Source: Pandoraea communis
GTDB lineage: Bacteria; Pseudomonadota; Gammaproteobacteria; Burkholderiales; Burkholderiaceae
Direction of reading: 5' to 3'
DNA: 32,598 nucleotides
Assembly: GCF_902459745.1 (NCBI RefSeq)
Contig: NZ_CABPSJ010000011.1
Span: forward strand, 1-32,598
Positions 8,306-32,424 of this stretch are shown one piece after another. Position 1 is the stretch's first letter. The number at the start of each line of letters is the position of its first letter. The notes beneath the pieces were generated by a model that did not search any database, was not told the DNA's origin, and was given only the letters and a program-made list of their open reading frames with translations. A program made the position numbers and the translations under genes.

Positions 8306-9991
8306 ATGCGTTTGATGAAAACGAACCGGCTGTGGCTGCGCTGGGCGGCAGTGTGCGCTGTCACGTTGGGCGGAACCGTTCATGGCGTTGCGATTGCTCA
8401 GGAGGCCAAAGCAGACCGGCCGGACAATTCGCCTGCGGCAAAGCCGCAGGCCGGCGCGACAGGATCGGCGCCAGCGAAGGAAAAGTCTGCCGACGCGCAG
8501 AAGCCCGTCAATATCAATGAGTACGTCGTGCGCGGCAACACGGTGCTCGATGTCCGCACGATCGAAAAAGCCGTGACGCCGTATCTCGGGCCGAACCGTA
8601 CACTCGCCGACATCGAAGCCGCACGCGACGCCTTGCTCGCGGCCTATCAGGCCAAGGGCTATCAGTCGGTGTACGTCGATTTGCCGGAACAGCAGGTCAC
8701 GGGCGGCGTGGTCTATCTCAAGGTGAGCGAGACCAAGCTGGGACGTCTGCGCGTGGTCGGCTCGGAATACCACTCGCCGCGCGAGGTGCGTGATCGCGTG
8801 CCGTCGTTGGCCGAGGGCAAGGTGCCGGATTTCAACGCCGCACAGGCGGAACTCACGGCCCTGAACCGTACCGGCGAGCAACAGGTGGTGCCGCTCGTCA
8901 AGCAAGGGGCGGTGCCCGGCACGATGGACGTCGACCTCAAGGTCGAGGACACCAACCCGTGGCGCGCGAGCTTCAGCCTGAACAACGACCGCAGTGCCGA
9001 TACGAAGCCGCTGCGCATGCTCGCGTCGGTGGGTTACGACAACCTGTGGCAACTCGGCCATCGCGTGTCGATGAGCTTCTTCGGTGCGCCTCAGGACTTC
9101 AGCCAGAGCAAGGTGTGGTCGGGGTCGTATGTGGCGCCGATCGGGTCTTCGCCCTGGACGCTCGAACTTAACGGCTATCAGTCGGACAGCAATGTCGCCA
9201 CTACCGGCGGCACTACGGTGCTCGGCAAGGGGCACGCGATCGGCGTCAAGACGACCTACACCGTGCCGGATACCGGCGCCTGGTATCACGCCTTCAGCCT
9301 TGGCGTGGACTTCAAGGACAACACGGAAACCACCCGCTTCGGCACCGCCGGCGATGTGGTGCCGCTCAAATACGCACCGATCACGCTCGGCTACAGCGGC
9401 TTTTATCAGGACGAAGACCTGAGCGCCGGCCTGAATACGTCGATCGTCTCGGGCATGTCGAGCTTCCTCGGCTATGGCAGCAGTCCGGCCCAGTTCGACG
9501 CGAAGCGCTATAAGGCGTCGCCCAGCTTCATGGTGCTGCGTGCGGATGCGAACGGCACCTATACGTTCGGCGGCGGCTGGCAACTCGCGGCGCGCGTTGC
9601 CACGCAGATGACCGATTCGCCGCTGATCTCCAACGAACAACTCGCCGGCGGCGGCATGAACTCGGTGCGCGGCTACCTCTCGGCCGAAGCGACCGGCGAC
9701 TACGGCGTGGTCGGCTCCATCGAATGGCGTACGCCGCCGATTCCGCTGCTAGGCCCGGTCGTCTCGAACTGGCGCGCGTATGCGTTCTTCGACGGGGCGC
9801 GACTGGGGCTGCGCGACGCGTTGCCGGAGCAGACCTCGCGTTACTCGCTGGCGTCGGTCGGTGTGGGGTCGTCGCTGCGTCTGACGTCGCACGTGACGGG
9901 GCGCGTCGATGCGGCGTATCCGCTGACCAACGGACCGCGCACGGAGCGCTACAAGCCGCGGTTGAACTTCAGCGTCACGGCAACGTATTGA
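8306..9991 (+). CDS. TpsB two-partner secretion transporter (ShlB/FhaC/HecB family)
   Basis: A 561-aa outer-membrane protein. Residues 1-31 are a signal peptide ending AIA-Q. After a Lys/Pro/Ala-rich linker come two POTRA domains, about residues 70-143 (INEYVVRGNTVLD to VVYLKVSE) and 145-218 (LGRLRVVGSEY to MDVDLKVED), which would bind the secretion domain of the partner in the periplasm. The rest is a 16-strand-type barrel. Its loop-6 signature VRGY is at residues 454-457. The last residue is Tyr after an alternating strand, acceptable for barrel assembly. It heads the operon running to 16341, and the likely substrate is the giant TpsA at 19258-32424. TpsB genes usually sit directly beside tpsA; here about 9 kb and nine other genes lie between them. 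The ribosome site is weak. Confidence 0.95.
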   Translation: MRLMKTNRLWLRWAAVCAVTLGGTVHGVAIAQEAKADRPDNSPAAKPQAGATGSAPAKEKSADAQKPVNINEYVVRGNTVLDVRTIEKAVTPYLGPNRTLADIEAARDALLAAYQAKGYQSVYVDLPEQQVTGGVVYLKVSETKLGRLRVVGSEYHSPREVRDRVPSLAEGKVPDFNAAQAELTALNRTGEQQVVPLVKQGAVPGTMDVDLKVEDTNPWRASFSLNNDRSADTKPLRMLASVGYDNLWQLGHRVSMSFFGAPQDFSQSKVWSGSYVAPIGSSPWTLELNGYQSDSNVATTGGTTVLGKGHAIGVKTTYTVPDTGAWYHAFSLGVDFKDNTETTRFGTAGDVVPLKYAPITLGYSGFYQDEDLSAGLNTSIVSGMSSFLGYGSSPAQFDAKRYKASPSFMVLRADANGTYTFGGGWQLAARVATQMTDSPLISNEQLAGGGMNSVRGYLSAEATGDYGVVGSIEWRTPPIPLLGPVVSNWRAYAFFDGARLGLRDALPEQTSRYSLASVGVGSSLRLTSHVTGRVDAAYPLTNGPRTERYKPRLNFSVTATY

Positions 9992-10072
9992 GCGATTGAG
10001 CGAATAAGGCGACCTGCCAACGGCCCGGAAAAGACACATCCGAATTTCACGACACAACATTCACGACCTGAT

Positions 10073-10101
10073 GCCCGGTGCGCCAATTCAACGCGCCGGG
10101 C
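10073..10101 (+). promoter_or_regulatory. Hairpin in the TpsB-ExbB intergenic segment
   Basis: GCCCG-GT-GCGC and GCGC-CGGGC pair around a 9-base loop (CAATTCAAC), giving a 9-bp stem with a 2-base bulge. It ends 24 bases before the next ATG. There is no U-run, so it is not an intrinsic terminator. It may protect or process the mRNA and so set the ratio of TpsB to the energising complex. The 133-base gap shows no convincing promoter. Confidence 0.35.
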
Positions 10102-10124
10102 GGCATAAACGGAGAAATACAGCC

Positions 10125-11897
10125 ATGCGACGCATTCTTCCATTCCTGCTTGCGCTGATCGGCACGCTGATGCCGGTGCTCGCGCACGCTTGGTGGCAAC
10201 CGGATTGGGCGTACCGCAAGCCGATTACCATCGATGCCGGCCCGCAAGGCGGCAATATCACGGGCGACGCCGGCCGGGTGCCGATGCTGCTGCGCCTGCA
10301 CACCGGCAACTTCAGCTTCGAAGGCGTGAACGAAACCGGGGCTGACCTGCGCTTCGTGGCGGCCGATGACAAGACGGTCCTCAATCACCAGATCGAGCAG
10401 TTCGATCCGGTGCTGGGCATCGCACTCGTGTGGGTCGATGTGCCCGCCGTCACCGCAGGCGCCAAGCAACAGGTCTGGATGTACTACGGCAACCGCAAGG
10501 CCCCTGCGGCGGGGAACGGTCAGCGTGTGTTCGATCCGGACTACACCGCCGTGTACCACTTCGGCGAATCGAACGTGCCCGCGCGCGACACGACCGCCTA
10601 CGGCAACAATGGCCAGAACCCGATCGTCACACTCGACGGCGCGATCATCGGCAAGGGCGCACAAGCCGGCGCGTCGCCGATCGTGCTGCCCGCTTCGCCG
10701 TCGCTCGCGCTTGCCGCCGGCAGCCCGTTCACGTTCTCGGCCTGGGTGCACCCGGAGAAGCTGGGCGCGAACGAAGCGATCTATGTGCGCCGCGACGGTG
10801 GCAGCGATCTGGTGATCGGTGTCGATCAGGGCGTGCCGTTCGTGCAGGTGGGGGCTCAGCGCAGTCAGCCGGGCCAGCCGATTCAAGCGGGGAAGTGGTC
10901 GCATCTGGCGGTCACGGCCGACGGTAAGTCGGTCACGCTCTACGTCGGCGGTCAAGCAGCCACCACGCTGGCGGTGGCATTGCCTGCACTGAATTCGCCG
11001 ACGATCATCGGCGGCGACGTCGAAGGCGCCTCGGGCGGCCTCGCTCGCTTCTCGGGTGCGGTGGACGAAGTGCGTCTGTCGAAGGTCGCCCGCAGCGCCG
11101 CGCTGCTTCAGACGGATGCGGTTTCGCAAGGTGCCGAATCGCGTCTGATTGCCTATGGTCCGGATGAGCAGCAAGCGGGCAAGAGCCATTTCGCCTTCAT
11201 CCTCGCGGCCATGCCGGTCGACGCCTGGGTGGTGGTCTGTGTGCTGGGCCTGATGGCGCTGGTCTCGTGGCTCATCATGATCACGAAGGGTCGCAGCTAC
11301 GCCGCGAAAGCACGCGCCAACAGCGCATTCATGACGCATTTTCGCGAAGCCTCGGGCGCACCGCTCGACCAGATCGCGCGTACGAACCGTGTGCCGGAGA
11401 GCGTGCAAGACCAATCGCCGCTGTGGCGTCTGTACGAGGTCGCGCTTAGCGAACTGCATCGCCGTCACGAACTCGGCTACGACACGAGCGCTGTGTCCGA
11501 GGCGACCATCAGCGCCATTCGCGCGTCGATGGACGGTGCGATGGTGCGCGAAGTCGAAGACATGAGCAAACGCATGAACTGGCTCTCGACGTCCATCGAA
11601 GGGGCGCCGTATGTCGGTCTGTTCGGCACCGTGATCGGGATCATGCTGGTGTTCGTCGTGGCCGCCATGGCGGGCGCGGTGGACATCAATTCGGTGGCAC
11701 CGGGCATGGCCGCCGCACTGCTGTGTACGGCCGCCGGTCTCGGCGTGGCCATTCCCGCACTGTTCGGCTACAACTGGTTGGTGTCGCGCTCGGATGCACT
11801 TTCCGCCGACATGGCCGTGTTCGTCGACGAGTTCACGACCCGCCTCGCCGAAGAGCAGGGCGAAGGCCGCCGTCAGCCCGTGCTGCAACGCGCCTGA
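10125..11897 (+). CDS. ExbB/TolQ/MotA-type proton channel with DUF2341 and LamG-like periplasmic domains
   Basis: A 590-aa inner-membrane protein combining two unrelated parts. Residues 1-22 are a signal peptide. Residues ~24-135 are a DUF2341 domain (WAYRKPITI, QVWMYYGN). Residues ~150-340 are a concanavalin/LamG-like fold (YHFGE, FTFSAWVHPEKLG, WSHLAVTADGKSVTLYVGG, GAVDEVRLS). The C-terminal third is ExbB-like: a first membrane helix at ~367-389, a cytoplasmic helical stretch, then helices at ~494-518 (YVGLFGTVIGIM) and ~527-552, the proton-channel signature. Ordinary ExbB is about 240 aa with no such ectodomain. The start at 10125 has GGAG ten bases upstream and gives the signal peptide; the frame is open further upstream without one. 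It precedes exbD by 12 bases. It should form the stator with ExbD and drive TonB; the ectodomain may bind peptidoglycan, glycan or the secretion partner. Confidence 0.9.
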   Translation: MRRILPFLLALIGTLMPVLAHAWWQPDWAYRKPITIDAGPQGGNITGDAGRVPMLLRLHTGNFSFEGVNETGADLRFVAADDKTVLNHQIEQFDPVLGIALVWVDVPAVTAGAKQQVWMYYGNRKAPAAGNGQRVFDPDYTAVYHFGESNVPARDTTAYGNNGQNPIVTLDGAIIGKGAQAGASPIVLPASPSLALAAGSPFTFSAWVHPEKLGANEAIYVRRDGGSDLVIGVDQGVPFVQVGAQRSQPGQPIQAGKWSHLAVTADGKSVTLYVGGQAATTLAVALPALNSPTIIGGDVEGASGGLARFSGAVDEVRLSKVARSAALLQTDAVSQGAESRLIAYGPDEQQAGKSHFAFILAAMPVDAWVVVCVLGLMALVSWLIMITKGRSYAAKARANSAFMTHFREASGAPLDQIARTNRVPESVQDQSPLWRLYEVALSELHRRHELGYDTSAVSEATISAIRASMDGAMVREVEDMSKRMNWLSTSIEGAPYVGLFGTVIGIMLVFVVAAMAGAVDINSVAPGMAAALLCTAAGLGVAIPALFGYNWLVSRSDALSADMAVFVDEFTTRLAEEQGEGRRQPVLQRA

Positions 11898-11909
11898 CGA
11901 GGACGAATC

Positions 11910-12320
11910 ATGGCAAACGCAACGCGATTCGCCGCGAAGAAGCGCTCGGGCGGTATCAACATCACGCCGTTCGTCGACGTGCTGCTGGTGGTGCTGGTGA
12001 TCTTCATTCTCACGAGTAACGCCAGCATTCCCGGCATCAAGGTCGATCTCCCGAAGGCCAGCTCATCGGTGGCGCTCGAGAAGCCGAAGACCAAGGCGAT
12101 CACGGTCGATAACGCCGGTCAGGTGTTTCTCGATGCCTATCCGGTGACGCTCACCGAGCTTGAGGATCGCTTGCGCACGGAGAAGGCGGTCACGCCCGAT
12201 TTCCCGGTGATCGTGCGCGGCGACGCGCAGGTGCAGTACGCCAAGGTCGTCGAAGTGCTCGACCTGCTGCGCCGGATCGATCTCAACCAGGTCGGCCTCG
12301 TGACCGGCAAGCCGCAGTAA
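11910..12320 (+). CDS. exbD: ExbD/TolR-family proton-channel subunit
   Basis: A 136-aa protein with the standard ExbD layout. It has a short basic cytoplasmic N-terminus, then INITPFVDVLLVVLVIFIL with the essential membrane Asp at residue 23 (equivalent to Asp25 of E. coli ExbD), and a periplasmic domain of about 95 residues (ITVDNAGQVFLD, FPVIVRGDAQVQYAKVVEVLDLLRRI). ACGAGGA lies before the ATG. It sits between the ExbB-like fusion and tonB, spaced 12 and 10 bases, so the three form a complete private energy-transducing complex in one operon. Length and key residues are normal. Confidence 0.95.
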   Translation: MANATRFAAKKRSGGINITPFVDVLLVVLVIFILTSNASIPGIKVDLPKASSSVALEKPKTKAITVDNAGQVFLDAYPVTLTELEDRLRTEKAVTPDFPVIVRGDAQVQYAKVVEVLDLLRRIDLNQVGLVTGKPQ

Positions 12321-12330
12321 GGAGCGCAGC

Positions 12331-13056
12331 GTGAAACCTCGCGATTTCGCGTCTCGCCCCGTGCGGCCCGCCACCAAACCGCCCAGTCCGGTGCTCGTAC
12401 AGCTGCGCCGGCGCGGTGGATGGATCGTTGGCGGCCTTGTCGTGCTCGGATTGATTGCCCTTTTCTGGCATTTGCTCACCGACAAGGCCAGCACGCGCCG
12501 CGAGGTCAACACCCCGCCGATGCTGATGCTGCCGCCGCCTCCGCCACCCCCGCCGCCGCAGGAGAAGCCGCCTGAGCCGCAGCCGGAGAAGATCAAGCCC
12601 GAAGTCGTCGAGCCGAAGCCGGCCGACCCCGTGGAGCCGCCGAAGGACGACACGCCGCCAAGCCCGACCAAGGATCTCGGCGACGCCGTGACGATCAACG
12701 GCGACGCGCAAGCCGGCACCGACGCGTTCGGCGTTGGCGCCGGCCGTGGCGGCGGCATGACCGGCGGCGGTGGCGGGCTGGGCAGCCGCTCATACAGCGC
12801 ATGGCTTGCCAGTTCGTTGCAACAGGCGTTCGGACGCGATCAGCGCACTCGCACGCTCGCGTTCGACGACGTGCGCATCGATCTCTGGCTCGACGCCGAC
12901 GGGCGCGCCACGCGCGCCCAGATGGTGCGGGGCACTGGTAACGCGGCGATCGACGATGCGGTGCTCGCGATGTTGCGCGACTTCCGTGCGGAAGAAAAGC
13001 CGCCGGCGTCGCTGCACTTTCCGCTGTCGATGAGTATCCGGGGGCGCAGGCCATGA
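12331..13056 (+). CDS. tonB: TonB-family energy transducer
   Basis: A 241-aa inner-membrane-anchored periplasmic protein. It starts at GTG with AAGGAG six bases upstream, the AA of which belongs to the exbD stop codon. Residues 1-29 are basic and cytoplasmic; 30-49 form one membrane anchor (WIVGGLVVLGLIALFWHLL). Residues ~59-115 are Pro-rich with a run of nine Pro and then Glu-Pro/Lys-Pro repeats, the usual periplasm-spanning rod. A Gly-rich hinge follows, then a C-terminal domain from ~residue 150 (YSAWLASSLQQAF to LHFPLSMSIRG) like TonB/TolA C-terminal domains. The anchor lacks the classical SxxxH motif in its textbook spacing, although a His is present at residue 47. The stop overlaps the porin ATG (ATGA). 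The outer-membrane partner is not certain: candidates are the porin-like protein, TpsB or the STN protein. Confidence 0.9.
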   Translation: MKPRDFASRPVRPATKPPSPVLVQLRRRGGWIVGGLVVLGLIALFWHLLTDKASTRREVNTPPMLMLPPPPPPPPPQEKPPEPQPEKIKPEVVEPKPADPVEPPKDDTPPSPTKDLGDAVTINGDAQAGTDAFGVGAGRGGGMTGGGGGLGSRSYSAWLASSLQQAFGRDQRTRTLAFDDVRIDLWLDADGRATRAQMVRGTGNAAIDDAVLAMLRDFRAEEKPPASLHFPLSMSIRGRRP

Positions 13057-14912
13057 AGCGCAATACGACGCTCGTCACGCCGCATACGGCACAAGCAGGA
13101 CTTCCTTTTTACGCAAAAGTCACACACAAAATGAAAGCACTGGAACGTATGACCGACGCGCTCGCGCACCGACATGCGCCACGCGCTGCGGGCACCGCAG
13201 GCGCTGTGGCGCTGGCGCTCGCGCTGCTGGGCACCGCGGGCCTGGCCCACGCTCAGGCGCAGCCTGCCCCGAAAGACACCGCCATGGTCAAGCTGATTCG
13301 CGGCCTCATCAAGAGCGGCGCGATCGACAAGACCACCGGCGAAGCCTTGCTTGCGCAAGCCGAAACGGAAGCGTACGCGGCGGCGGCGGCTCAGAAGGCA
13401 GCCGCAACGCCTGCGGTGGCCGCGGCGGCCGTGCCCGGCGGCGAGCCGGGCGATGTGCGCGTCCCGTATATCTCGCAGACCACGCGCGATCAGATCCGCG
13501 ACGAGGTGAAGAGCGAGGTGATGGCGCAGGCCAAGACGGAAGGTTGGGCCGCACCGAACGAAACGCCGGAGTGGACCAAGCGCATTCACGTCGAAGGCGA
13601 CTTCCGCCTGCGCAACGAGTCGCGCTTCTACTCGAGCAGCAACACGAACACGCAGATCGACTGGGCGCAGATCAACAAGGGCAATGGTTTCGACGTCAAC
13701 TCGAACACCAACCTGGCACTCCCGCCGCTGCTCAACACCACGCAGAACCGCACCAACCAGTTCCGCGCCCGTGCGCGCTTCGGTATCTTCGCGGACGTAT
13801 CCGAGCAGGTGAAAGCCGGCGTGCGGCTGGCCGCCAGCAACGACGACAGCCCCGTCTCGACCAACTCCACGCTGGGCGGCGGCCTGAACAAGAAGAGCGT
13901 GTGGCTCGACCAGATGTGGATGTCGTATCAGCCGTTCGACTGGGTGAAGTTCACCGGCGGCCGTTTCGCCCCGCCGTACGTCACGAGCGATATGTTGTTC
14001 TCCAGCGACCTGAACGTCGACGGCATTGCTGCACAGTTCAACAAGGTGCTGCCGCAGAACCCGAACGTCGAACTGTTCGGCTCGCTCGGCTTCATCCCGC
14101 TCGAATACTCGGGCGACAACTCGCCGTCGAACAGCCAGAGCAAGATGTCGAGCCAGACCAAGTGGATGCTGGGCACGCAGTTCGGCGCGAACTGGAAGCT
14201 CGACTCGAAGAACAGCTTCCGCGGCACGGTCGGTTACTTCGACTTCCGCAACATCACTGGGCAACTGTCGTCGCCTTGCGCGCTCTACGCAGGCCAGACG
14301 AGCTGCGATTCGGACTGGTCGCGCCCGGCGTTCATGCAGAAGGGCAATACGCTCATGCTGCTGCGTAACATCGCGCTCAACCCGCTTGACCCGGCCAATA
14401 CGGCGCAACCGCAGTATGTCGGCTATGCCTCGAAGTTCCAGTTGCTCGACCTGTCGGCCCGTTGGGACACGGTGCTGGCTGGCCGCTATCCGCTGCGCTT
14501 CGACGTGAACTACATCCGCAACCTGGCCTACAACGAAGGCGAGATGTGGGCGCGCGCGAACGGCGGCATCGTGAGCAACTTCGGCGCGGGCGACGCGACG
14601 CGAGCCAACTTCAAGAGCGGCCCGAACGCCTACATGTTCCAGGCCACCTTCGGCAAGCCGGTCATGGCGTCGCGAGGCGACTGGAACGTGCTGTTCGGCT
14701 ACAAGCGTATCGAGCCGGATGCCGTGCCCGATGCCTACAACGACTCGACGTTCCATGGTGGCGGCACGAACGCGAAGGGCTACTACATCGGCGCTTCGTA
14801 CGCCTTCGACAAGAACGCCTGGCTCTCGGGCCGTTGGCTCTCGACGAAGGAAGTCTATGGCGCGCCGTTGTCGATCGACACGCTGCAAATTGAAGTCAAC
14901 GCGCGATTCTAA
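13053..14912 (+). CDS. Putative porin (Porin_5-like outer-membrane barrel)
   Basis: A 619-aa outer-membrane protein. From the ATG overlapping the tonB stop, the first ~68 residues contain a long leader with a hydrophobic core (GAVALALALLGTAG) ending LAHA-QA. Starts at 13131 or 13149 would give a more normal 35-41 residue signal peptide, but neither has a good ribosome site. The mature N-terminus has the family's periplasmic helix (LIRGLIKSGAIDKTTGEALLAQ) and the segment VRVPYISQTTRDQIRDEVK with EVMAQAKTEGWAAPN. The barrel begins at RIHVEGDFRLRNESRF and ends in an alternating strand with terminal Phe. Proteins of this family are annotated as putative porins without a known substrate. Being inside a TonB-ExbBD operon suggests a linked outer-membrane task, possibly solute uptake or support of adhesin secretion. 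Confidence 0.85.
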   Translation: MKRNTTLVTPHTAQAGLPFYAKVTHKMKALERMTDALAHRHAPRAAGTAGAVALALALLGTAGLAHAQAQPAPKDTAMVKLIRGLIKSGAIDKTTGEALLAQAETEAYAAAAAQKAAATPAVAAAAVPGGEPGDVRVPYISQTTRDQIRDEVKSEVMAQAKTEGWAAPNETPEWTKRIHVEGDFRLRNESRFYSSSNTNTQIDWAQINKGNGFDVNSNTNLALPPLLNTTQNRTNQFRARARFGIFADVSEQVKAGVRLAASNDDSPVSTNSTLGGGLNKKSVWLDQMWMSYQPFDWVKFTGGRFAPPYVTSDMLFSSDLNVDGIAAQFNKVLPQNPNVELFGSLGFIPLEYSGDNSPSNSQSKMSSQTKWMLGTQFGANWKLDSKNSFRGTVGYFDFRNITGQLSSPCALYAGQTSCDSDWSRPAFMQKGNTLMLLRNIALNPLDPANTAQPQYVGYASKFQLLDLSARWDTVLAGRYPLRFDVNYIRNLAYNEGEMWARANGGIVSNFGAGDATRANFKSGPNAYMFQATFGKPVMASRGDWNVLFGYKRIEPDAVPDAYNDSTFHGGGTNAKGYYIGASYAFDKNAWLSGRWLSTKEVYGAPLSIDTLQIEVNARF

Positions 14913-14922
14913 GGAGGTGGTC

Positions 14923-15666: not shown

Positions 15667-15738
15667 CGCGTGTGGCGAGGGGCGTCGGTGGCGCACCTCG
15701 TCCCGAATTCGCATAACGATAGTTCGAGGATCACTGGC

Positions 15739-16341
15739 ATGAACGAAGAGAACACGATGCAACACGACAACCACGACGCCGAGCGGGCCGGTGCGCCGAC
15801 GTCTTCGCACTCGTCGTCGTCCGCAGACATCATCACGTCTGTCACGTCCGCCCAGGTAGCCGACGCTATTCGTGCCGCCGGTTGCGCGGTGTCGGTGCAG
15901 CAAGACGATCTGGTCACGCGTCTGCACAGCGCGAGCCACGGCATCGGCTATCAGGTGCACTGGGGAAATCAGGCCGGCGCCGATCAGTATCTCGATTTCA
16001 CGCTGAGCTGCCCCCTGCGGGTTCAGGGCGGCGATCTTCCCGAAGGTCTGATCAACGAGTGGCACCGCTCGCGCCGGTTCGCCCGTGTAGCCGCACACGG
16101 CGAGTTCCTTGTACTCGAGATGGACGTCATCGTGGCAGGCGGCGTTTCCCCCGAATTCCTGAATTTCTCGATGCGCCTCTGGGTCGAGATGATGGGACAG
16201 TTCTTCCTGCATCTTCGCAACTTCACGCAGCAGGCCACCGGTCAGACCGCCGGTGCCGAGGCGTTGGGCGAAGACCTTGCTGCCGTGCCGGGCGACACGC
16301 CCGCAAGCGGCGATGGGCAGGTACCGATGACGCTTAACTAA
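15739..16341 (+). CDS. YbjN-domain protein
   Basis: A 200-aa soluble protein without a signal peptide. The first ~30 residues are polar and disordered (His/Ser-rich). Residues ~35-165 match the YbjN fold: VADAIRAAGCAVSVQQDD, then a beta strand pattern (YLDFTLSCPLRV), the conserved INEWHRSRRFARV helix, a strand segment LVLEMDVIVAGGV, and FLNFSMRLWVEMMGQFFLHLRNF. YbjN-type proteins resemble type III secretion chaperones and are often assigned a chaperone or regulatory role, which would suit a cytoplasmic helper for a very large exported substrate. That link is inference. The start at 15739 has GAGGA upstream; a GTG at 15670 opens the frame but has no ribosome site. It is the last gene before the terminator at 16438. 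Confidence 0.8.
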   Translation: MNEENTMQHDNHDAERAGAPTSSHSSSSADIITSVTSAQVADAIRAAGCAVSVQQDDLVTRLHSASHGIGYQVHWGNQAGADQYLDFTLSCPLRVQGGDLPEGLINEWHRSRRFARVAAHGEFLVLEMDVIVAGGVSPEFLNFSMRLWVEMMGQFFLHLRNFTQQATGQTAGAEALGEDLAAVPGDTPASGDGQVPMTLN

Positions 16342-16417
16342 AGCGTCGCCGCGCGGCGCATCATTGCGCGTTTCTCGCCTGAGCCTCGGGAACCTCCCGC
16401 GCGCGGTTGTTTCACGT

Positions 16418-16557: not shown

Positions 16558-16591
16558 CTGTCAAAGTACCGTCACAATCGATCACCAGAAT
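16558..16591 (+). promoter_or_regulatory. Pho-box-like site and -10 upstream of the STN gene
   Basis: CTGTCAA-AGTA-CCGTCAC (16558-16575) is a 7-4-7 direct repeat with 11-base period. It matches the PhoB consensus CTGTCAT-N4-CTGTCAT at 11 of 14 half-site positions. CAGAAT (16586-16591), ten bases downstream, fits the -10 placement of PhoB-activated promoters. It lies about 160 bases before the STN start codon. In P. aeruginosa the homologous signalling genes are, as I recall, induced by phosphate starvation through PhoB. The site is seen; PhoB binding is inferred. Confidence 0.55.
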
Positions 16592-16604: not shown

Positions 16605-16733
16605 TACAAATTATTTTTCGGGCCTACGGGGAAGCGGCTAACGCCTTGGCGCGTTGCCGTGAGCTTTGCCTGCCGCACAGGTCCCCCCCCCGATTTTCCC
16701 GAACGCCCGCCATGCAAAGGCCAACCGCCCGAG

Positions 16734-17963: not shown

Positions 17964-17995
17964 ACGATCGATTGCCGATGGCGCGCGGGAAAGCC

Positions 17996-19148: not shown

Positions 19149-19257
19149 CGAGAGCGTCAAGCGTTCGCATCGCTTGAACGAAAACCTGCCAGGGCCGTCG
19201 CTGGCGTTGTCGCGAGACAACGTCCCACGGCCGCACGAGACGCCAGACGGGATTGAG

Positions 19258-25200: not shown

Positions 25201-28200
25201 GCCACGACGGCAGGGTTCGGCGGCAAGACGAATAACGTGGTGCTGCGCGGCGGCGCCATGCTGCGCGCCAGCGAAGTCTTCCTCGTGACGACTACGCCGA
25301 CCAAAGGCATCACCATCGAACAGGGCAGTGGCATCAATACGCTCGGCTACGGCATGCCGATGTGGGATTCCACGATGGGGTATACCTACGCACCGGGGGC
25401 GTCGGGTGTGCTGGCGGTGTCCAATGGGCGGCTCGCAATGCTCGCACCGATGCCTTCCAATCCGGGCGATTATTCCGGGGCGGGATACATCGACCTCGGC
25501 GTCTGCGCGGCGGGTGCGACATGCGCAGGTGAAACGCTGCTGCTTTCCGAAGGTTCGATTGCGGTGGCGACCGACAAGCGGTTCACGATCACCGATGCCG
25601 TGCGCTATGGCACGCGTCAGTTGTCGCTCGCCGTCGGCCGGGTCAACGTCGGCGAGCAGGCGTCGCTCGACGCACTCGCGGCGTCCGGACGTCTGGCGGA
25701 AGGTCTCACGCTCAACCAGACAGTGCTTTCGCGACTGATGCGTGGCGACAGGCTCTATGGCGCGCCCGCGCTGGAAAGCCTGACTCTTATCGCCCGCGAT
25801 TCGATCAACTTCTACGATTCTGTCGAACTCTCGACCATCGACGCAGCGACGGGCAAGTCGACCATCGATGCGCTCGTGCTGGGCACGCCCGCGATCTTCG
25901 GATACGGCGCGAGCGATGCGATCGCACGCATTCGTACCGACCGGCTTGTATGGACCGGTTCGAAGTCGCCGGCGGGGGCCATCGTCGCGGGCGGGGCAGG
26001 CACCGGCAGCGGACGGCTGTCCATCGATGCGCGTGAGATCGAGTTCGGCTTCGGGGCAGCCACGCAGCGCGACGTCAACCACGACATGAACCGTATGACT
26101 GTCGGTTTCTCGACAGTCGAGCTCAACGCCAGTGAGCGCGTGAGTGCCAACCAGAAGGGCAGCCTGTCCGTCTATCGCTCGCAAAACGCGTGGAACGATC
26201 AGAAGCAGGATTTCGATTACAGCGGTGGCGACATCGTCATCGATACGCCGCTGCTCACCGGCGCGGCGGGGTCGGTGAACCGTTTCATCGCGGGTGGCAA
26301 TGCGTCGGTATCCAACGCCAGTGCGCGTGCGAAACCCGTGATCGACAGCGCCATGCTGGTGGCCGCACTGGGTGCCGAGGTCGGGCTGACGGCGGGAGGC
26401 GCAGCCACCATCGATACGAATGTCGTGCTGCCGAGCGGCCGCCTGACGGTGGCCGCACAGGGCGACGTGACGCTCGGTGACGGCGCACAAATCGATCTGG
26501 CCGGACGCAAGCTCGATTTCTTCGACACCAGCAAATACAGTTGGGGCGGCGATGTGGGGGTGTCGAGCGCGAACGGCAACGTGCGCCAGGCTGCCGGGTC
26601 GCGCATCGATCTGTCGGCGGTGGAGAACCGGGCGGGCAAGCTCACGGTAGCCGCATTGGCGCCGACGGGCGGTGTCGTGTCGATGGCCGGCAAGCTGCTC
26701 GGCAGTGCCAGCGGGCGCTACGACGCGGGCGGCACGTTTGTCCCGTTCACGGCAGGCGGCGTGGATATTCGGGCACAACGCATCGACGACTTCGCCGCGC
26801 TCAATGCGCGTCTGACCGAAGGCGGTGTCTTCGGCAGCCGCAACTTCCAGATCAAGCAGGGCGATCTCGTCATTGGCGACGAACTCAAGGCACGTGAGAT
26901 CACGCTGTCGATCGACGGCGGGCGGCTCGATGTGCTCGGACGCGTCGACGCGAGCGGCGCGCAGGTAGGCACGATTCGCTTGTCGGCGCGCGACGGCGTG
27001 ACGGTCGGCGGCAACGCGGTGCTGGATGCGCACAGCACGACGTTACGCCTGGACAGTTACGGTCAGCCCATCGAGGCGTCCAACCGTGCGGTCATCGAGA
27101 TCAACGGGGATCAGGGGCGGGTAGTGCTGGCCAATGGGGCGCGACTCGACGTGCGTGCCGGCACGAACGACAAGAATGGCGCTTCGCTCTCGGCAGGCAC
27201 GGTCGAGATTAGTGCCAAACGGTTGGGCGGTGCGAACGAGGCGCTGGGCAACGACATCGCCATCGACGCGGGTGGCAACGTGGTGATCGACGGTGCGCGC
27301 TCCATCACGGTCAACGGAATGTTCCGCGACACCCATGCGCCGGCGGGCACCGATGTCGCTGTCGACGGCCGACCGTATCAGGTCGTCAATCAGGCTTATC
27401 TGGACACGCTTCACGGGCAGAACGAGACGTTCATGTCGAACGCGCTGGCCAACGGCGCGTTGCTGGCCCGTCTGGCCGGATTGCGCCGCTACACCGACGC
27501 CTTCCATCTGCGCCCGGGTGTCGAGATCGTCAGTGCGACGCCCAATGGCGATATTCACCTCGACGGTGACATCGACATGTCGCGCTATCGTTACGCGAGC
27601 CTGAATCCGAATACGCAGAAGACCGGTGTCTGGGGCAGCGGCGAAGCGGGCGCGCTGACGATCCGCGCCGGAGGCAATCTGAACGTCTTCGGCAGCCTGA
27701 CCGACGGGTTCGATACCAGCAAGCTCACGCCGAACGTCGACAACAAGGGGTGGGTGCTGATCAGCGGAAAAGCGGGGTGGGGCGGCGATGCCGTGGTGCC
27801 GGTGGGCGGGCTGGTGACGCTCGCCGCTGGCACCGTGTTCCCGGCGGAGCGCAAGCTCAACTTCGACGTGCAGGTCGCGGCAGCGAAGCTGCCTGCTGGC
27901 ACGCGTCTGCCTGCACGCGCAACACTTGACGCAGATCTCACGCTGCCTGCCGGCACCGTGCTCGGAGCCGCCGTGCGTGATGCGGCGGGCAACGTGGTGT
28001 ATCCGGCCGGTACGGCGTTGACGTCGGCGTTGGCCTTGCATGCCGGCATGCAGCTCGATGCCGGGATGTTGTTACCCTCGGAGACGTCTGTCGGCGCGAT
28101 GCGATGGCCTGCGGGCGCCGTGATGCCGGTGAACTTCAAGCTCGCGGTCGATGTGCCGTTGCGCAAGGGCGCGATCATTCCGGCCGAGACCGACGTCAAA

Positions 28201-31200
28201 CTGCCGGGGGATGTGTTGTTCGTCAATGTTCGCCCGGCGGATGCCGACGGCAATCAGGGACAGCTCCACGCGATTGCGCCGATGCTTCAGGCGGGCTCCG
28301 CGTCGTGGTCGCTGCGACTGGTCGCCGGGGCCGATACGTCGGCGGCCGATCCGCGTGCGTTGCAACCGTTAGGGTCCGATGGGCACCTGATTCTCTCGGA
28401 CACTCATTACGGCATGGGCGAACTCAGTGTGCTCAGGCCAGGGACCGGCACGCTCGGTGTCTACCGTTGGGGGCCGGATGCATGGCAACTGGGCGGTGTC
28501 GAAGGCGAGATCGTGACGCAGGGCGAATTGGATGCCTGGGGCATTGCCTCGGCCGCAGATATCGACATGTGGAACGGGTACTACGACGCGTTCCACCTCG
28601 TGACGCCGGGTATTCCTGCTGAGTACGACACGAAGACGCAGCCCGCTCGCGAACCGGTCTTCAGCGTGGTGCGCACCGGCACGGGCGATCTCGACATGCT
28701 CGCGGCGGGTAACTTCACGATGAACTCGCCGTTCGGGGTCTATACGGCAGGCACACAGGCGCGCGATGTGACGAGCGCCTATAACCTCGCACGGGCCAAG
28801 CTCAAGAACACCTCCGTGCTTGGCGCGGAAGGTGCGCCATTCGAGACATACGTCAGCGGTACGCAGAGCCTTTACACCGCGTGGTACCCGGAGCACGGCG
28901 GCAATCTGTTCGTGCGCGCTCAGGGCGATATTCGTGGCGACACGGTCGGGACGCGCGACCGGTATCAACGCGCGACAAGCTTTGGTGCGCCGCGAGCCGT
29001 TCCGGATTCCGGCAACGTGGGCAACTGGCTGTGGCGGCAGGGATCGGGCTCCGCGATTGCGCAGGGGGGCGTGCCCACTGCCTGGTGGATCAACTTCGGG
29101 ACTTACACCTTCGGCAAGGAAGCCGGCTACGCGGTGTATGAATTGGCGCCGTTCCTGACCGGTTTCACCGGACTTGGCACGCTCGGCGGCGGCAATGTCG
29201 TGCTCGAAGCCGGTGGCAACGCAGGGATGCTGGAGTCACGCATCGGGGCGGGGAATTCCGACGGCACGCTCGCGTTGGCTCGCAGCGAGGGCCTGAATGT
29301 GTCGGTCGGCAGCACCGGGCGGGTATCGGCCGATGGTTCGCAGATCCAGTTGACGGGCGGTGGCGATCTCGACGTGCGTATCGGCGGCGGGCTGAATCCG
29401 GTGCGCGAAGTGCGCGCCGTCGCACCGGCCAACAGCGTCGTGAACGATTCGACGGCATGGCGCAACGGCAATCTGGCGTTGTATGGCACGTTCACGAATC
29501 TGCGTGGCGCCACGCGCATAGAGGCGGGCGCGCTTGGCGGCGTCGACACGCTATTCGGTGTTCCCGACTTGCGCGAAGCACGGGCGCGCGATGTGTTCAC
29601 TGCGCAGACGGCGTTCGCGACCGGCGGCCCGACGCTGGTGCTCGGCGACTCGACCGCTCGTATCGACACGCGTGGCGATCTGGTGATCGGCGGCTACGGC
29701 GATGCCACGCGCTTGCAGCAGCGCACCAACGGCACGCCGTTCTCGGCCGCCGGTGTCAACTACGGCGGCGAGGGTCACAGTTGGTTCACGTTGTGGACGC
29801 CGTCGACCGCCATTGACCTGTTCAGTGCCGGGGGGAATCTCTCGCCCCTTACGGCCATCGCCGACAATCGCGAGGGGGCGAACTATGCGGCGACCGATGG
29901 CCGCTTCGTGTTGCCCGCGACGCTTCGTGCTGTGGCGGCGAGCGGCAGCATTTACAACGGCTATTCGGCAACGGGTATTCGCGATGCGGCCGGGGTTTCC
30001 ACCATCGGCGATACTCCCGCGTTGCTGGCGCCCGAGCCTGTCAGCTCGTTGTTCAAGGTCGCTGCCGATGGCGGGGCGCTCGAGATGATTGCGGGCCAGT
30101 CGCTGCTTGGGTCCGGCTTTCCGATCAGTCGCTCGGCGGCGGATCCGACGGCTTTGCCTACGCCGCAAAATCCGGGGTTTGCCGGTGGCGTGCGTAGCGC
30201 ATGGTTTGGCCGCGTGTATCTCACAAATGTCAGACAGGACGCGCTCGCGCCGCAGATCATCACCTCCCCCGGTCAGGACTCGGCAACGAAGTTTCCGATG
30301 TTCAGCCTGACCCCGGCAACCGTGTCCGGTTATGACTTCACCGGTATTTCGCCTGCACGCTTCTATGCGCTCGCTGGCGACATCGTCGGGTTGCAGACGG
30401 GGGGCATCGACTATCGTGGCAGCATACTGCCCGCACCGGGCACCCAGCCGACGTGGTACGAGGGCAACGGCGCGGTGGCGATCCGGGCAGGACGAGACAT
30501 CGTCAACTCGGGAACGCCGCTCGGCACCTATCTGAGCACCCATGCAGATTTCGCCGGGTGGAGCACCACGCCTGACTTCCAGGACCCGGTCAACAATCCG
30601 GGGCGACCGGTGAGTGCGTCGAGCGCGACGATGCGCGGCAATCTGATCGTGCAGAACTCGGCAGACGATGTTTCGGTAGTGTCGGCGGGACGGGATATTC
30701 TTTACAGCACGTTCTACGTGGCCGGCCCGGGGCTTCTGGAAGTCACGGCGGGGCGCAACGTCTTCATGGGCGACAAGGCCGAGTTGCGCAGTCTCGGCGC
30801 GCTCGCCAACGTCAAGCCGGGCGACCGGAGCAACGGGGCGGCGATTGCGGTGGCGGCCGGTGTGGGGCCGAAGGGGCTCGACGGCATCGACTTCAAGGCG
30901 TTCGCGGCTCGATATCTCGATGCGGCGAACCTGGCGGACGGATCTCGGCCATTCGCCAATCAGCCGGGCAAGGCCGTGGTCGTCTATGGCGGGGAGCTTA
31001 CGCTCTCGGGATGGCTGCATCAGGAGTTTGGTTATGACGGCAATGCGACCGGCGCTGATGCCTTCCTCGTCAAGAAGCAGACGGAACTCGACGCGGCGAG
31101 CAAGGCGGCGGGCGGCACCGGCGGTGCGGCGAAGCGTGATCTGCGCAACGAATTCGCACAGCAGAGCCAACTGTATCTCGTGAATTGGCTGGCCACACGC

Positions 31201-32424
31201 TTTGGCGGACGCAACGGTCTGGGTGTGCATTTCGATGCGGCGTCGATGGATGCGCGTCAGTTCTTCGATGCGCTTCCGGCCGAACAGCAACGCGCGTATT
31301 TGCGCGATGTGTACTTCGCCGAGTTGCGGGCATCCGGGCGTGAGTACAACGACGCTAGCGGCCCGCGTGCGGGGAGCTATCTGCGCGGGCGCGAAGCCAT
31401 CGCTACGCTTTTCCCGGGCGGCTCGACCGAGTACGACGGCAGTCTCACGATGTACAGCAGCGCGCTCTACTATCTTCAGAACATCGGGCGGGAAGCGACG
31501 ACGCGTCCGCGGCCCGGCGTGAAGTATCTGACGCAGGCGCAATGGGCTGCACGGGGTAGCCCGGCGTACGACGTTCCCCACTACGAAGTGCAGGATGCCG
31601 GCATTCATACGGACTTCGGTGGCGGGGTGAGCATTCTCACGCCGGGGGGGCGCATGCTCGTCGGCGTGGATGGCGGTTTCGTGCCGGGTGAGGGCTCGGG
31701 TGTGCTCACGCAGGGACGTGGCAACGTCGATATGTATGCGCGTGACAGCATCCTGCTTGGTCAGAGTCGGGTGTTCACGACGTTCGGCGGCAATATTCTG
31801 GCGTGGTCGGCGCTGGGGGATATCAACGCGGGCCGCGGTTCGAAGTCGACGGTGGTGTACACACCGCAGCGTCGCGTCTACGACAACCTGGGGCTGGTAT
31901 CGCTTTCGCCGACGACACCGAACACGGGCGCTGGCATCGCTACGCTGAACCCGATCCCGGAGATTCCGCCGGGCGACATCGATCTGATTGCGCCGCTGGG
32001 CACGATCGATGCGGGCGAGGCGGGGATTCGGGTGTCCGGTAACGTGAACATCGCGGCGCTGCGGGTCATGAACGCGGAGAACATTCAGGTGCAGGGCAAG
32101 TCCGTCGGCATCCCGGCCATTGCGGCTGTGAATGTCGGCGCGCTCACGAATGCCAGTTCAACGGCGGCACAGGCTGCGGCTGCGGCACAGGATGCGGTAT
32201 CTCGCGATCGGGCGTCGGCGCGGCAGAATCAGCCGTCGATCTTCTCGGTGCGCTTGCTCGACGTGGGCACGTCGAGCGATGCGACTGGCAAACCGCGTGC
32301 CGATGGCGGGCGGGCGCTGCGCTACGATCCGGCGTCGCCCGTGCAGGTGCTCGGACAGATGAATCTGAGTGAATCGCAGTCGCAGGCGCTTACGCCCACA
32401 GAGCGGAAAAACCTGATGCGCTGA
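19258..32424 (+). CDS. Giant TpsA filamentous haemagglutinin-family adhesin (4388 aa)
   Basis: A secreted or surface-displayed beta-helical exoprotein. Residues 1-45 are a long basic signal peptide (cleavage AHA-QQ). A Gln/Ala-rich helical spacer leads to the TPS secretion domain from ~residue 128, with NWETFNVG (179-186) and NRNGI (229-233, the usual NPNGI motif with Arg). The body is built of Gly/Asp/Val-rich solenoid repeats (patterns like GGxVxLxAxxxxxxG). Residues ~2847-2990 are unusual, with repeated LPAGT-type units. The C-terminal ~300 residues match the DUF3739 region of this family (PGGRMLVGVDGG, NAENIQVQGKSVGIPAIAAVNVGAL). The mature protein has only four Cys (1562, 1563, 2083, 2089). 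There is no VENN motif or toxin tail and no immunity gene, so it is not CdiA. ATG 19258 is chosen over 19264 and a TTG at 19174. It should be exported by the TpsB at 8306-9991. Confidence 0.93.
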   Translation: MTMHKRVVSLPTRTRASACLPRIRPLAQAVAVFAASSAMIGAAHAQQAFSNAWFAARGAAQSTAAQTGRLPNGMPVSSLQNPGEQQQRAAQAVQNSIANLATAAQGIAAMQAAQNAARQAAAATPETIPDGLAEGGLKVDTNSLTAGWINANKKIAQDRDAAGNTKVAIQQTGEKAILNWETFNVGRRTTVEFVQQPGWAVLNRVNDPQARPSQIQGQIKADGTVMIVNRNGIQFSGTAQVDTRNLVVAAVGMTNDQFNRGIYGAAVSGATVPTFANDLQVSGSSVSHTGATADVTVDAGARINTRRPQSVTEGGGYVLLLGREAHNRGTIVTPSGQTVVAGGDAFVIRRGVGTDGNLNSSTRGNEIEPKLLPGSTAGRVSNSGLILAELGDITLAARQIEQSGVLVSTTSVNTRGTIHLTASGDSNALVRVAPGALNAIVLDTSGDAALDAQRTTLLAEADKVAESGLFNRRDQSLVQIVSSGDVLFDSDSLTLATGGQINVLATRRAMAMERAKLDVSGAVGVQVAMSANNLEVNVQGNEQRDAPSNRDTHLLNNLTVYIDRRYLVRVPAGTQGYTTDRWYTQGGLLEVSGYLNTASHGIGEWAAQGGTVQLGGAEVVTRPGSLVNLAGGTLDVQTGMIRQSWLRGVDGQLYRVDNAPGDLRYLGVYRGFEAEHARWGRNTTETYATPFIAPGQRLENGYTVGRDAGRLIVSGLSAVLEGDVDTAVYQGPRQTQAADRVLYDGYLQSQLAAPRAGQLIVGKLTPYYDDALLTLRDSPSAMVRTINVGDVQALAAAIAQGSPLDVQRAGKITIDADWLNRQQFGGVKLLATDEVTLSRDIRVADGGDVGLHATRVNIDANITAHGGSIAAGNVVQRMLSATGNGTWADSPLTDPALVAGRQSVKVASGVTLDARGLWSRADDGEAGIRGMPYLNGGGVVLSTTGDVRVQQGSTIDVSSGAALLSGGTVRGGRGGNVSLLANQYDISGKGTGELHLDGALRAYGVSGGGSLTLNTGNGVVIGDPMPLGTSPDTLLNTSLFSTGFSRYDVTGQLGVTVADNTRLDVTMPVLNIDKRAAGEAVSGSDPSGVLSVFLAPVWQSDAAKGTITQRGGADLALSTGALRKRGQLSVGEGARIEVDPGRSITLTGNGQMTVFGTLRAASGTVSLLPGPFSAVDGYDGPEGTFTPTSIWLGGNAVIDVASRAFVAQDASGAISGKVAAGGTIQIGAKYVAGATQVEAADAFVIVRPGARLDASGTAADVDVPGQGRTHVVSNGGVISLASARGLYLDGDMKAVSGGAGAAGGTLNVVLETLAYGMVDRVTLRGPMVDDSVRVAHEMIVAQTQGNSLLSETLLPGTLGGGLTLGSARIGVDRVTAGGFDNLALFANGMMDFDGNVNLALGQSLRLTASSFGLSASAPRDTQVRLTAPIVQLAGPTRQQLDNYIIPNPVSGSKNSGQGSGMLGVPTLAEKAKFEVDGALIDVSGRMQFGTAGTIETNAGTPVSVLRDAFGNVALRSTGDLRLLDKTEVYSPGDMTLAAVQIYPGQNATARIVVGQRSYPSDCCVRQTMLDPDRVLTFERVGDTLAPQPYSLFGRMTFLAGQIRQGGVLRAPMGGITFGSLINTEANGMLHLLPGSVTSVSANGLVMPYGGTLDGLSYLNASADAVYALAGGGPSVIVYSHSLAVEPGAVIDLSGGGEIRGAAFLTGRGGSTDARFAPLMQVVQTGTKGSFRLPSLSSNPVYAIVPGAQPAYAPVVSENGAGAPLAGQQITIGAGVPGLPAGTYTLLPSTFALLPGAYRVELQTQTVSQAGLAPVAMRNGSLTLPAQLRVNNTSIRNATPTQAVLTSADVLRTYSQYNEMSYADFARATSGRVGAPRALIEADAKRLDLNFLSDSYQGKIGNAPALRFEGTANVAPAKGGYGASLLVSADNIEILGAGATPRQGDTTLTSLRADDLNAIGAARIGIGALPVVASDNSQSILNATTAGFGGKTNNVVLRGGAMLRASEVFLVTTTPTKGITIEQGSGINTLGYGMPMWDSTMGYTYAPGASGVLAVSNGRLAMLAPMPSNPGDYSGAGYIDLGVCAAGATCAGETLLLSEGSIAVATDKRFTITDAVRYGTRQLSLAVGRVNVGEQASLDALAASGRLAEGLTLNQTVLSRLMRGDRLYGAPALESLTLIARDSINFYDSVELSTIDAATGKSTIDALVLGTPAIFGYGASDAIARIRTDRLVWTGSKSPAGAIVAGGAGTGSGRLSIDAREIEFGFGAATQRDVNHDMNRMTVGFSTVELNASERVSANQKGSLSVYRSQNAWNDQKQDFDYSGGDIVIDTPLLTGAAGSVNRFIAGGNASVSNASARAKPVIDSAMLVAALGAEVGLTAGGAATIDTNVVLPSGRLTVAAQGDVTLGDGAQIDLAGRKLDFFDTSKYSWGGDVGVSSANGNVRQAAGSRIDLSAVENRAGKLTVAALAPTGGVVSMAGKLLGSASGRYDAGGTFVPFTAGGVDIRAQRIDDFAALNARLTEGGVFGSRNFQIKQGDLVIGDELKAREITLSIDGGRLDVLGRVDASGAQVGTIRLSARDGVTVGGNAVLDAHSTTLRLDSYGQPIEASNRAVIEINGDQGRVVLANGARLDVRAGTNDKNGASLSAGTVEISAKRLGGANEALGNDIAIDAGGNVVIDGARSITVNGMFRDTHAPAGTDVAVDGRPYQVVNQAYLDTLHGQNETFMSNALANGALLARLAGLRRYTDAFHLRPGVEIVSATPNGDIHLDGDIDMSRYRYASLNPNTQKTGVWGSGEAGALTIRAGGNLNVFGSLTDGFDTSKLTPNVDNKGWVLISGKAGWGGDAVVPVGGLVTLAAGTVFPAERKLNFDVQVAAAKLPAGTRLPARATLDADLTLPAGTVLGAAVRDAAGNVVYPAGTALTSALALHAGMQLDAGMLLPSETSVGAMRWPAGAVMPVNFKLAVDVPLRKGAIIPAETDVKLPGDVLFVNVRPADADGNQGQLHAIAPMLQAGSASWSLRLVAGADTSAADPRALQPLGSDGHLILSDTHYGMGELSVLRPGTGTLGVYRWGPDAWQLGGVEGEIVTQGELDAWGIASAADIDMWNGYYDAFHLVTPGIPAEYDTKTQPAREPVFSVVRTGTGDLDMLAAGNFTMNSPFGVYTAGTQARDVTSAYNLARAKLKNTSVLGAEGAPFETYVSGTQSLYTAWYPEHGGNLFVRAQGDIRGDTVGTRDRYQRATSFGAPRAVPDSGNVGNWLWRQGSGSAIAQGGVPTAWWINFGTYTFGKEAGYAVYELAPFLTGFTGLGTLGGGNVVLEAGGNAGMLESRIGAGNSDGTLALARSEGLNVSVGSTGRVSADGSQIQLTGGGDLDVRIGGGLNPVREVRAVAPANSVVNDSTAWRNGNLALYGTFTNLRGATRIEAGALGGVDTLFGVPDLREARARDVFTAQTAFATGGPTLVLGDSTARIDTRGDLVIGGYGDATRLQQRTNGTPFSAAGVNYGGEGHSWFTLWTPSTAIDLFSAGGNLSPLTAIADNREGANYAATDGRFVLPATLRAVAASGSIYNGYSATGIRDAAGVSTIGDTPALLAPEPVSSLFKVAADGGALEMIAGQSLLGSGFPISRSAADPTALPTPQNPGFAGGVRSAWFGRVYLTNVRQDALAPQIITSPGQDSATKFPMFSLTPATVSGYDFTGISPARFYALAGDIVGLQTGGIDYRGSILPAPGTQPTWYEGNGAVAIRAGRDIVNSGTPLGTYLSTHADFAGWSTTPDFQDPVNNPGRPVSASSATMRGNLIVQNSADDVSVVSAGRDILYSTFYVAGPGLLEVTAGRNVFMGDKAELRSLGALANVKPGDRSNGAAIAVAAGVGPKGLDGIDFKAFAARYLDAANLADGSRPFANQPGKAVVVYGGELTLSGWLHQEFGYDGNATGADAFLVKKQTELDAASKAAGGTGGAAKRDLRNEFAQQSQLYLVNWLATRFGGRNGLGVHFDAASMDARQFFDALPAEQQRAYLRDVYFAELRASGREYNDASGPRAGSYLRGREAIATLFPGGSTEYDGSLTMYSSALYYLQNIGREATTRPRPGVKYLTQAQWAARGSPAYDVPHYEVQDAGIHTDFGGGVSILTPGGRMLVGVDGGFVPGEGSGVLTQGRGNVDMYARDSILLGQSRVFTTFGGNILAWSALGDINAGRGSKSTVVYTPQRRVYDNLGLVSLSPTTPNTGAGIATLNPIPEIPPGDIDLIAPLGTIDAGEAGIRVSGNVNIAALRVMNAENIQVQGKSVGIPAIAAVNVGALTNASSTAAQAAAAAQDAVSRDRASARQNQPSIFSVRLLDVGTSSDATGKPRADGGRALRYDPASPVQVLGQMNLSESQSQALTPTERKNLMR

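Follow-up and report, generated by a model that had tools for sequence, protein, structure and literature searches.

Known systems and the Pandoraea locus

The PUMA3/Pdt locus of Pseudomonas aeruginosa holds vreAIR and, further down, pdtA, phdA, pdtB, exbB2, exbD2, tonB4 and PA0696–PA0699 (PMC7035377; PMC2729926; for these and all other papers cited, statements refer to the passages that were available). We analysed a system of the same kind in a stretch of 32,598 bases from Pandoraea communis (the window), which is one whole contig (C11) of a 5.7-Mb genome in 17 contigs. It combines a two-partner secretion (TPS) pair, TpsA and TpsB, with its own ExbB–ExbD–TonB set (the engine), a porin and a signalling trio. 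Our main finding is that TpsA proteins of the DUF3739 class, their type of TpsB, the engine with its unusual ExbB fusion and a 16-stranded porin co-occur almost perfectly in the sampled genomes.

In P. aeruginosa, the pdt genes, exbB2, exbD2, tonB4 and PA0696–PA0699 rise jointly upon loss of VreR, and the locus responds to phosphate starvation (PMC7035377). The same source lists PA0696 as a ‘putative outer membrane porin’, PA0698 as a member of the YbjN family and PA0699 as a PpiC isomerase, and terms the exbB2-exbD2-tonB4 set ‘still uncharacterized’. Expression of phdA through PA0701 (including pdtB, exbB2D2, tonB4 and PA0696–PA0701) reportedly starts from one promoter (PMC4971064). In six other genomes PUMA3 homologues accompany homologues of the TPS, ExbBD and PA0696 proteins (PMC2729926, published in 2009), and VreA was modelled there as an STN domain with a TolA/TonB-like C-terminal domain. 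The linkage and the accessory genes are not new, because PMC2729926 and PMC7035377 already print them. In particular, the porin, coiled-coil and YbjN genes, which the original prediction from the letters of the window had proposed as candidate new parts, appear as PA0696, PA0697 and PA0698 in the published list (PMC7035377). The exbB2 gene of another report (PMC8599685) is tolQ and is not relevant to the system.

All named genes of the system lie on the + strand of the window, and their predicted identities, single-strand arrangement and coordinates all hold. The gene for TpsB (8306–9991, 561 residues, Pfam POTRA_2 and ShlB) is followed by those for a DUF2341 + LamG + ExbB fusion (10071–11897, 608 residues, assigned by Pfam, single copy in the genome), ExbD (11910–12320, 136 residues, Pfam ExbD 104 bits), TonB (12331–13056, 241 residues), a Porin_5 protein (13053–14912, Pfam 618 bits), a coiled-coil protein with a signal peptide and no Pfam family (PA0697 position, ATG at 14923, end at 15666) and a YbjN-like protein (PA0698 position, 15670–16341 with an inner ATG at 15739, Pfam YbjN 39.3 bits). 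Judged from the gene spacing, the run from tpsB to ybjN probably forms one operon. Directly behind it come a VreA-like protein with STN and TonB-type C-terminal domains (16659–17447, inner ATG at 16734, Pfam STN), a VreI-like extracytoplasmic function (ECF) sigma factor (17448–17963), a FecR/VreR-like anti-sigma factor (18040–19056, Pfam FecR and DUF4880) and a TpsA of 4388 residues (19258–32424, TPS domain and DUF3739, frame open from a TTG at 19174).

Against the published PAO1 gene list, the gene set and the order from tpsB to ybjN agree, and the early comparison with VreA/I/R and PdtA/PdtB-ExbB2-ExbD2 is supported. The same order is found in Pseudomonas-titled loci (among L041–L087) of the collection described below; P. 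aeruginosa is not among the best 80 loci of that collection. The window differs from PUMA3/Pdt in that no PpiC isomerase, phdA or hxc type II secretion genes were found next to its engine, in the placement of STN/sigma/FecR and TpsA directly behind the engine, and in that extra TpsA genes share one engine. This arrangement of one engine and many passengers is a variant of the P. aeruginosa type. With classical two-partner secretion (type Vb; FhaB/FhaC, HMW1) the system shares the TPS domain and a TpsB with POTRA domain and ShlB barrel, whereas DUF3739, a tail motif and a nearly invariable TonB/porin set distinguish it. The HxuCBA system for haem–haemopexin likewise has TPS and TonB dependence within one cluster (PMC5422565); HxuC, however, is a TonB-dependent transporter, while the window has a 16-stranded porin and its own TonB-ExbBD.

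Co-occurrence of the engine with one TpsA class

A draw of 274 genomes of the class from about 170 families was searched, genome by genome, with the fusion, DUF3739, the TPS domain, the window TpsB and the porin. The ExbB fusion was found in 18 genomes and DUF3739 above its cut-off also in 18, with 17 genomes having both; one additional weak DUF3739 match stayed below the cut-off. The general TPS domain was present in 94 of the 274 genomes. System-type TpsB (at least 273 bits, next score 170) occurred in 16 genomes, of which 15 also have the fusion. The system-type porin (at least 146 bits, next score 56) was found in 19, namely the 18 fusion genomes and G200. In a second draw of 279 genomes from the phylum, fusion and DUF3739 were confined to the same eight genomes, two of which (G000 and G107) are shared with the class draw. 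The corresponding Fisher p-values are 7e-25 (class) and 1e-15 (phylum), uncorrected for relatedness. What the present analysis adds here is that the engine accompanies a single class of TpsA, the one with DUF3739.

Two genomes depart from this pattern and were counted as exceptions in all tables. G104 (85% complete) has the fusion without DUF3739. Its fusion lies on an 8.6-kb contig and begins only 435 bases before the contig stops, and on another contig a TpsA N-terminus, cut by the contig end, adjoins a TpsB; this pair may be of another type because the TpsB scores only 37 bits. G200 (64% complete) has TpsB, DUF3739 and porin without the fusion. Its TpsA stops approximately 300 bases from a contig end, and on each of two other contigs a porin adjoins a TonB fragment cut by the contig end. 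Both exceptions may be assembly gaps. In G558 the fusion lies within one contig and TpsA, TpsB and porin lie on another.

Within the genus (32 genomes), the fusion is present in 17 genomes, always as one copy, and each of these has one to six DUF3739 matches, some of them fragments. The other 15 genomes contain no intact DUF3739; their only match is a frame of 170 residues with a stop in G291. In this relic (stretch L200, 9721–10695) the DUF3739 end lies beside a gene of the small Cys-pair family described below, and no other system gene was found in that 20-kb stretch.

The P. communis genome has one engine, one TpsB of the system type (the next best scores 42.7 bits) and five DUF3739 matches. 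Each of the two full-length DUF3739 genes of contig C2 stands behind an STN–sigma–FecR trio of its own, and the copy on contig C10 runs into the contig end. In G276, on two contigs, a trio is found ahead of two tandem TpsA genes, a third TpsA and the ortholog of the window; the upstream side of a sixth DUF3739 match is outside the sequence read. All five full-length dispersed TpsA genes with their upstream side in view (two in P. communis, three in G276) thus stand behind a trio of their own. This layout agrees with a single TpsB/TonB machine that is shared by passengers switched separately, and the single engine of the P. communis genome seems to serve several dispersed TpsA genes. The original prediction had called the system self-contained. 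This holds only in part, since one engine seems to work for TpsA genes elsewhere in the genome. Its claim that TpsA, engine and trio belong together is strengthened by the whole-genome co-occurrence, which in the genus includes TpsA genes far from the engine.

Conservation of the locus itself was followed with a profile of 13 fusions, which matched at least 574 related sequences from named genomes. The analysis used the 80 best of these, in most cases including 10-kb flanks; together with the window and 43 other stretches they make up 124 loci scanned for open reading frames. By title, the 80 loci include members of Burkholderiales, Pseudomonas, Xanthomonadaceae, Bradyrhizobium, Sphingomonas, Verrucomicrobiota and one metagenome-assembled Anaeromyxobacter genome. 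In the window plus these best 80, TpsB and ExbD are present in all 81 loci, TonB in 79, Porin_5 in 78, the coiled-coil protein in 69 and YbjN in 51. Adjacency, counted only for loci with enough room, was found for TpsB in 80/81, ExbD in 76/78, TonB in 77/77, Porin_5 in 74/75, the coiled-coil protein in 66/73 and YbjN in 47/69. The order is retained from Burkholderiales to Rhizobiales and Verrucomicrobiota, and the conserved linkage expected at the outset for Burkholderiales and Pseudomonas was indeed observed. The window fusion and its counterpart in Pandoraea sp. PE-S2T-3 (L033) share 97% identity. One record bearing the title Bacillus subtilis (L080) has the system at 61% identity and is most likely a mislabelled or contaminated assembly.

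Since the 80 loci were picked via the fusion, their linkage does not by itself demonstrate a need of DUF3739 TpsA for the fusion. If the passengers depended on TpsB alone, they would likewise disappear with the locus. Motor and porin are implicated because the samples, G200 apart, yielded neither system-type TpsB nor DUF3739 TpsA in the absence of the motor, and no such TpsB in the absence of the porin.

Engine, porin and passenger

The residues of the TonB-ExbB-ExbD channel are retained in the window. Thr520 and Thr553 of the ExbB fusion are invariant in 13 of 13 aligned fusions (window included), and the transmembrane Asp of ExbD is retained in an alignment with ExbD of PDB entries 7ajq and 6tyi. 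The Glu of the TolQ ‘IAEAL’ motif is replaced by Ala in the window ExbB. The DUF2341/LamG (ConA-like) region of the fusion is probably periplasmic. TonB consists of a transmembrane helix, a Pro-rich disordered stretch and a C-terminal domain with the topology α-β-β-α-β (AlphaFold2 model, mean pLDDT 77). It scores below the cut-off of Pfam TonB_2 (19 vs 22 bits) and above that of TIGR01352 (31 vs 27.1 bits), and its family profile gives weak but consistent matches to TonB, HasB and TolA in the PDB. Elsewhere, a second fusion-ExbBD-TonB set lies within a type II secretion cluster (L143, 5220–19274; GspD by Pfam, the rest by eye) and is adjoined by a protein of 214 residues with a lone TPS domain. 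In L145 a gene for a BTLCP (LapG-type) cysteine protease (10449–11009, − strand) is located immediately upstream of a fusion ExbB.

The signalling trio comprises a barrel-less protein of the VreA type (STN plus TolA/TonB-like C-terminal domain) together with an ECF sigma factor and a FecR-type regulator. The C-terminal domain of the STN protein is homologous to that of the engine TonB (hhalign 99.6%, E 5e-24; two control comparisons gave 0.1%). Upstream of the STN gene, a direct repeat resembling a pho box (16558–16575, + strand, one mismatch) is found at the same place in two relatives from the genus (L033 and L199). At up to three mismatches, the pattern occurs ten times against 11.55 expected, which is not above chance. 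Two further sites, at 24320–24337 inside tpsA (two mismatches) and at 7579–7596 at the 3' end of the small gene described below (one mismatch), are probably due to chance. No common promoter motif was found upstream of tpsB and three tpsA genes.

The porin was predicted as a 16-stranded barrel preceded by N-terminal helices (AlphaFold2, mean pLDDT 88.5). Its predicted secondary structure contains no plug domain and nothing beyond the N-terminal helices and loops. The best Foldseek match is the attachment porin OmpM1 of Veillonella (TM-score 0.71 by target, 0.42 by query), followed by general porins such as OmpF. The likeness to OmpM1 is one of fold; the identity is 15%, and a Pfam scan of the window porin gave Porin_5 only and no SLH domain. 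With 16 strands and porin folds as matches, the protein differs from a TonB-dependent transporter, which has a 22-stranded barrel with a plug. The idea of a plugged TonB-dependent receptor was therefore rejected, while the porin stays a candidate client of the engine. Because of the strand number, the N-terminal helices and the OmpM1-like fold, the cluster has a motor without a classical TonB-dependent receptor. A conserved segment resembling GDVRVPYVP sits in the low-confidence linker before the barrel. It was found in exact or near form in 62 of 62 aligned system porins, partly as judged by eye (a first pattern matched 24/62, a second 47/62, and the 15 misses were near variants by eye), and it was missing from four of four more distant porins.

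TpsA runs from a signal peptide through an Ala-rich, helix-like extension, the TPS domain, a long body and DUF3739 to a C-terminal tail. DUF3739 scores 131.9 bits in a Pfam scan of the whole protein, which listed this family only; searching the genome gave 76.5 bits for the TPS domain. An N-terminal TPS domain in TpsA and POTRA domain and barrel in TpsB place the pair in two-partner secretion. Tails of DUF3739 TpsA proteins contain an Ala-rich stretch and then a short strand-like motif, typically PS[IVF]x[TS]V[EQ][VI]LG[FY]G. This strict motif is present in 39 of 43 tails (45 rows less two short L073 frames), in 38 of them at the homologous place and in the 39th (L156, from the P. communis genome) at a second site further down the tail. 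Shuffled tails contained it 0.09 times on average and twice at most, and it was absent from all 17 complete control TpsA proteins without DUF3739 (longest open reading frames of 20 stretches; the three open-ended ones, which were not counted, also lack it). In six distant genera at most one residue separates the motif from the end of TpsA. A later, second pattern matches 37/43 tails. Among additional tails, that of G422 fits the strict pattern and those of G010 and G558 fit only the later, looser one; the TpsA of G101 leaves its contig before the tail. The window tail is one of the four that miss the strict motif and has the local variant PSIFSVRLLDVG at 32233–32268 (+ strand). Many tails (e.g. 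L080, L040) have a second, weaker site farther on, similar to S.VQV.G.G, that resembles the first motif.

The TonB client may be the TpsA tail motif, the porin segment or both, each being a conserved, strand-like segment. The tail motif may resemble a TonB box. Two other contact sites were considered and rejected. A TonB box at the N-terminus of TpsB is contradicted by the stretch before POTRA, which is unconserved in 90 sequences. The N-terminal helix extension of TpsA is no universal contact: 99–106 residues precede the TPS domain in the window protein and two further P. communis copies, 13–14 in the distant DUF3739 TpsA of G150, G262 and G249, and a median of 5 (range 0–58) in 20 controls. 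Its apparent conservation came from 26 rows picked by a hidden Markov model that itself contained the extension, and the L043 row starts in the reading of another gene.

A small secreted protein overlooked at first is encoded divergently from tpsB (7596–8021, − strand). It has a conserved Cys pair and a RMGN.FG.S..PQRP tail and belongs to no Pfam family. Its family was found in 39 of the 124 scanned loci (e.g. L033 7484–7930, L082 19181–19633) at varying positions: beside TpsB, beside STN/Sig/FecR or a few kb downstream of the engine. The coiled-coil family has the conserved C-terminal motif C..kN..ly..g.e.L.aYe...rqPfag..RVk. Near the coiled-coil and ybjN genes, a PpiC-type isomerase gene like PA0699 is found in L035 (15545–16489, identified by Pfam) and in 38 other loci; no such gene was found in the window. 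GspK-like type II secretion genes, recognised by eye, lie near the system in L045, L050, L058, L060, L066, L069 and L074, comparable to hxc in P. aeruginosa. The remaining window contains a large amidohydrolase gene (4091–6817, − strand, Amidohydro_3 451 bits) with an AbiEii-type AAA ATPase gene and an AraC regulator nearby.

Possible work of the engine

Based on these results we propose a TonB-coupled two-partner secretion, in which the engine energises the display or release of TpsA; we consider the chances of this proposal to be even. TpsA would pass through TpsB in the usual way, driven by folding, and its C-terminal end with the Ala-rich stretch and the short strand motif would remain periplasmic. 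Proton-driven ExbBD-TonB would then act at the outer-membrane assembly, on the TpsA tail, the porin segment or both, and its work would consist in completing, holding or releasing the displayed TpsA. The STN protein would sense the same target as TonB, which it could do because both have the same type of C-terminal docking domain, and would pass the signal on to FecR and the ECF sigma factor. These in turn would switch the TpsA and engine genes. The surface touched by TonB, and the choice between display and release as the work done, are speculative. A more far-reaching form of the proposal is possible, though we regard it as doubtful: the whole DUF3739 class would be obligately motor-driven, with the proton motive force acting via ExbBD-TonB and the passenger tail motif in a pull towards display, retraction or release, and with one motor for several separately switched passengers. 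The co-occurrence in genomes suggests that there is some kind of dependence.

Several observations weigh against energised display or release. Type V secretion is described as working without an energy source (PMC5422565). In zebrafish, in a background overexpressing VreI, a mutant in the tonB homologue PA0695 was as virulent as the wild type, and so were tpsA and tpsB mutants (PMC2729926). VreA seems dispensable for the activation of VreI (PMC7035377), and no experiment in the literature passages at hand shows TpsA secretion needing this TonB. On the genomic side, the fusion genomes G070, G104 and G221 (78–85% complete) gave no system-type TpsB, and no trio precedes the DUF3739 frames of 1324 residues in the P. 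communis genome (contig C6) and in G276. The engine can also serve other clients, because the 20-kb stretches around the deeper fusion-ExbBD-TonB copies of L142, L143 and L152 show neither TpsA nor porin. All five tails of the P. communis genome, the window tail included, have only a variant similar to PSIF[ST][VI]R.L..G at the homologous place. The N-terminal extension, not being universal, is ruled out as a general TonB target, and the statistics on related tails and genomes were not corrected for phylogeny.

The main rival places the work of the engine at the porin rather than in secretion. TpsA would capture a ligand and the TonB-energised porin would import this ligand or a product of it, as HxuA, HxuB and HxuC do for haem. 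Consistent with such adhesin-linked uptake, the system-type porin is no less obligate than the ExbB fusion (19 genomes); it directly follows the engine in 74 of 75 loci and carries the GDVRVPYVP-like segment that the four distant porins lack. HxuABC provides a precedent in which a TonB-dependent partner belongs to a TPS system (PMC5422565), and the P. aeruginosa locus answers phosphate starvation (PMC7035377). The 16 strands, the missing plug and a best fold match to OmpM1 instead of a TonB-dependent receptor argue against it, and a single porin for up to six TpsA proteins would require a common cargo. We know of no cargo and consider uptake rather unlikely.

Alternatively, the engine could power no transport at all, signal envelope or surface contact to FecR via the STN protein and anchor the porin as a stalk. 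The TonB-type C-terminal domain of the STN protein, the resemblance of the porin to an outer-membrane attachment porin and the large lectin-like region of ExbB point in this direction. The two Thr residues of ExbB and the Asp of ExbD are, however, retained as in working motors, not every locus showed STN genes close to the engine, and the dispensability of VreA in P. aeruginosa (PMC7035377) speaks against a sensor of this kind as well, so that we regard it as improbable. Least probable is a plain TPS system beside which a TonB system merely travels by linkage or shared regulation: it would agree with the described lack of an energy requirement (PMC5422565) and the missing virulence phenotype of single mutants (PMC2729926), but within the genus the co-occurrence also holds for TpsA genes remote from the engine, it extends to the separate contigs of G558, and the gene order is retained from Burkholderiales to Rhizobiales and Verrucomicrobiota.

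In the literature covered, which left most subscription journals outside the search, we found no claim of an obligate tie between a class of TPS and a TonB motor, and a search for DUF3739 returned no paper. A TpsA class that is nearly never found without a private, proton-driven motor would be an exception to type V secretion without an energy source, and it would make testable how type V passengers are driven across the outer membrane. The layout of one motor and many passengers moreover provides a natural experiment: among the 32 genomes of the genus, those that lack the engine also lack any intact passenger.

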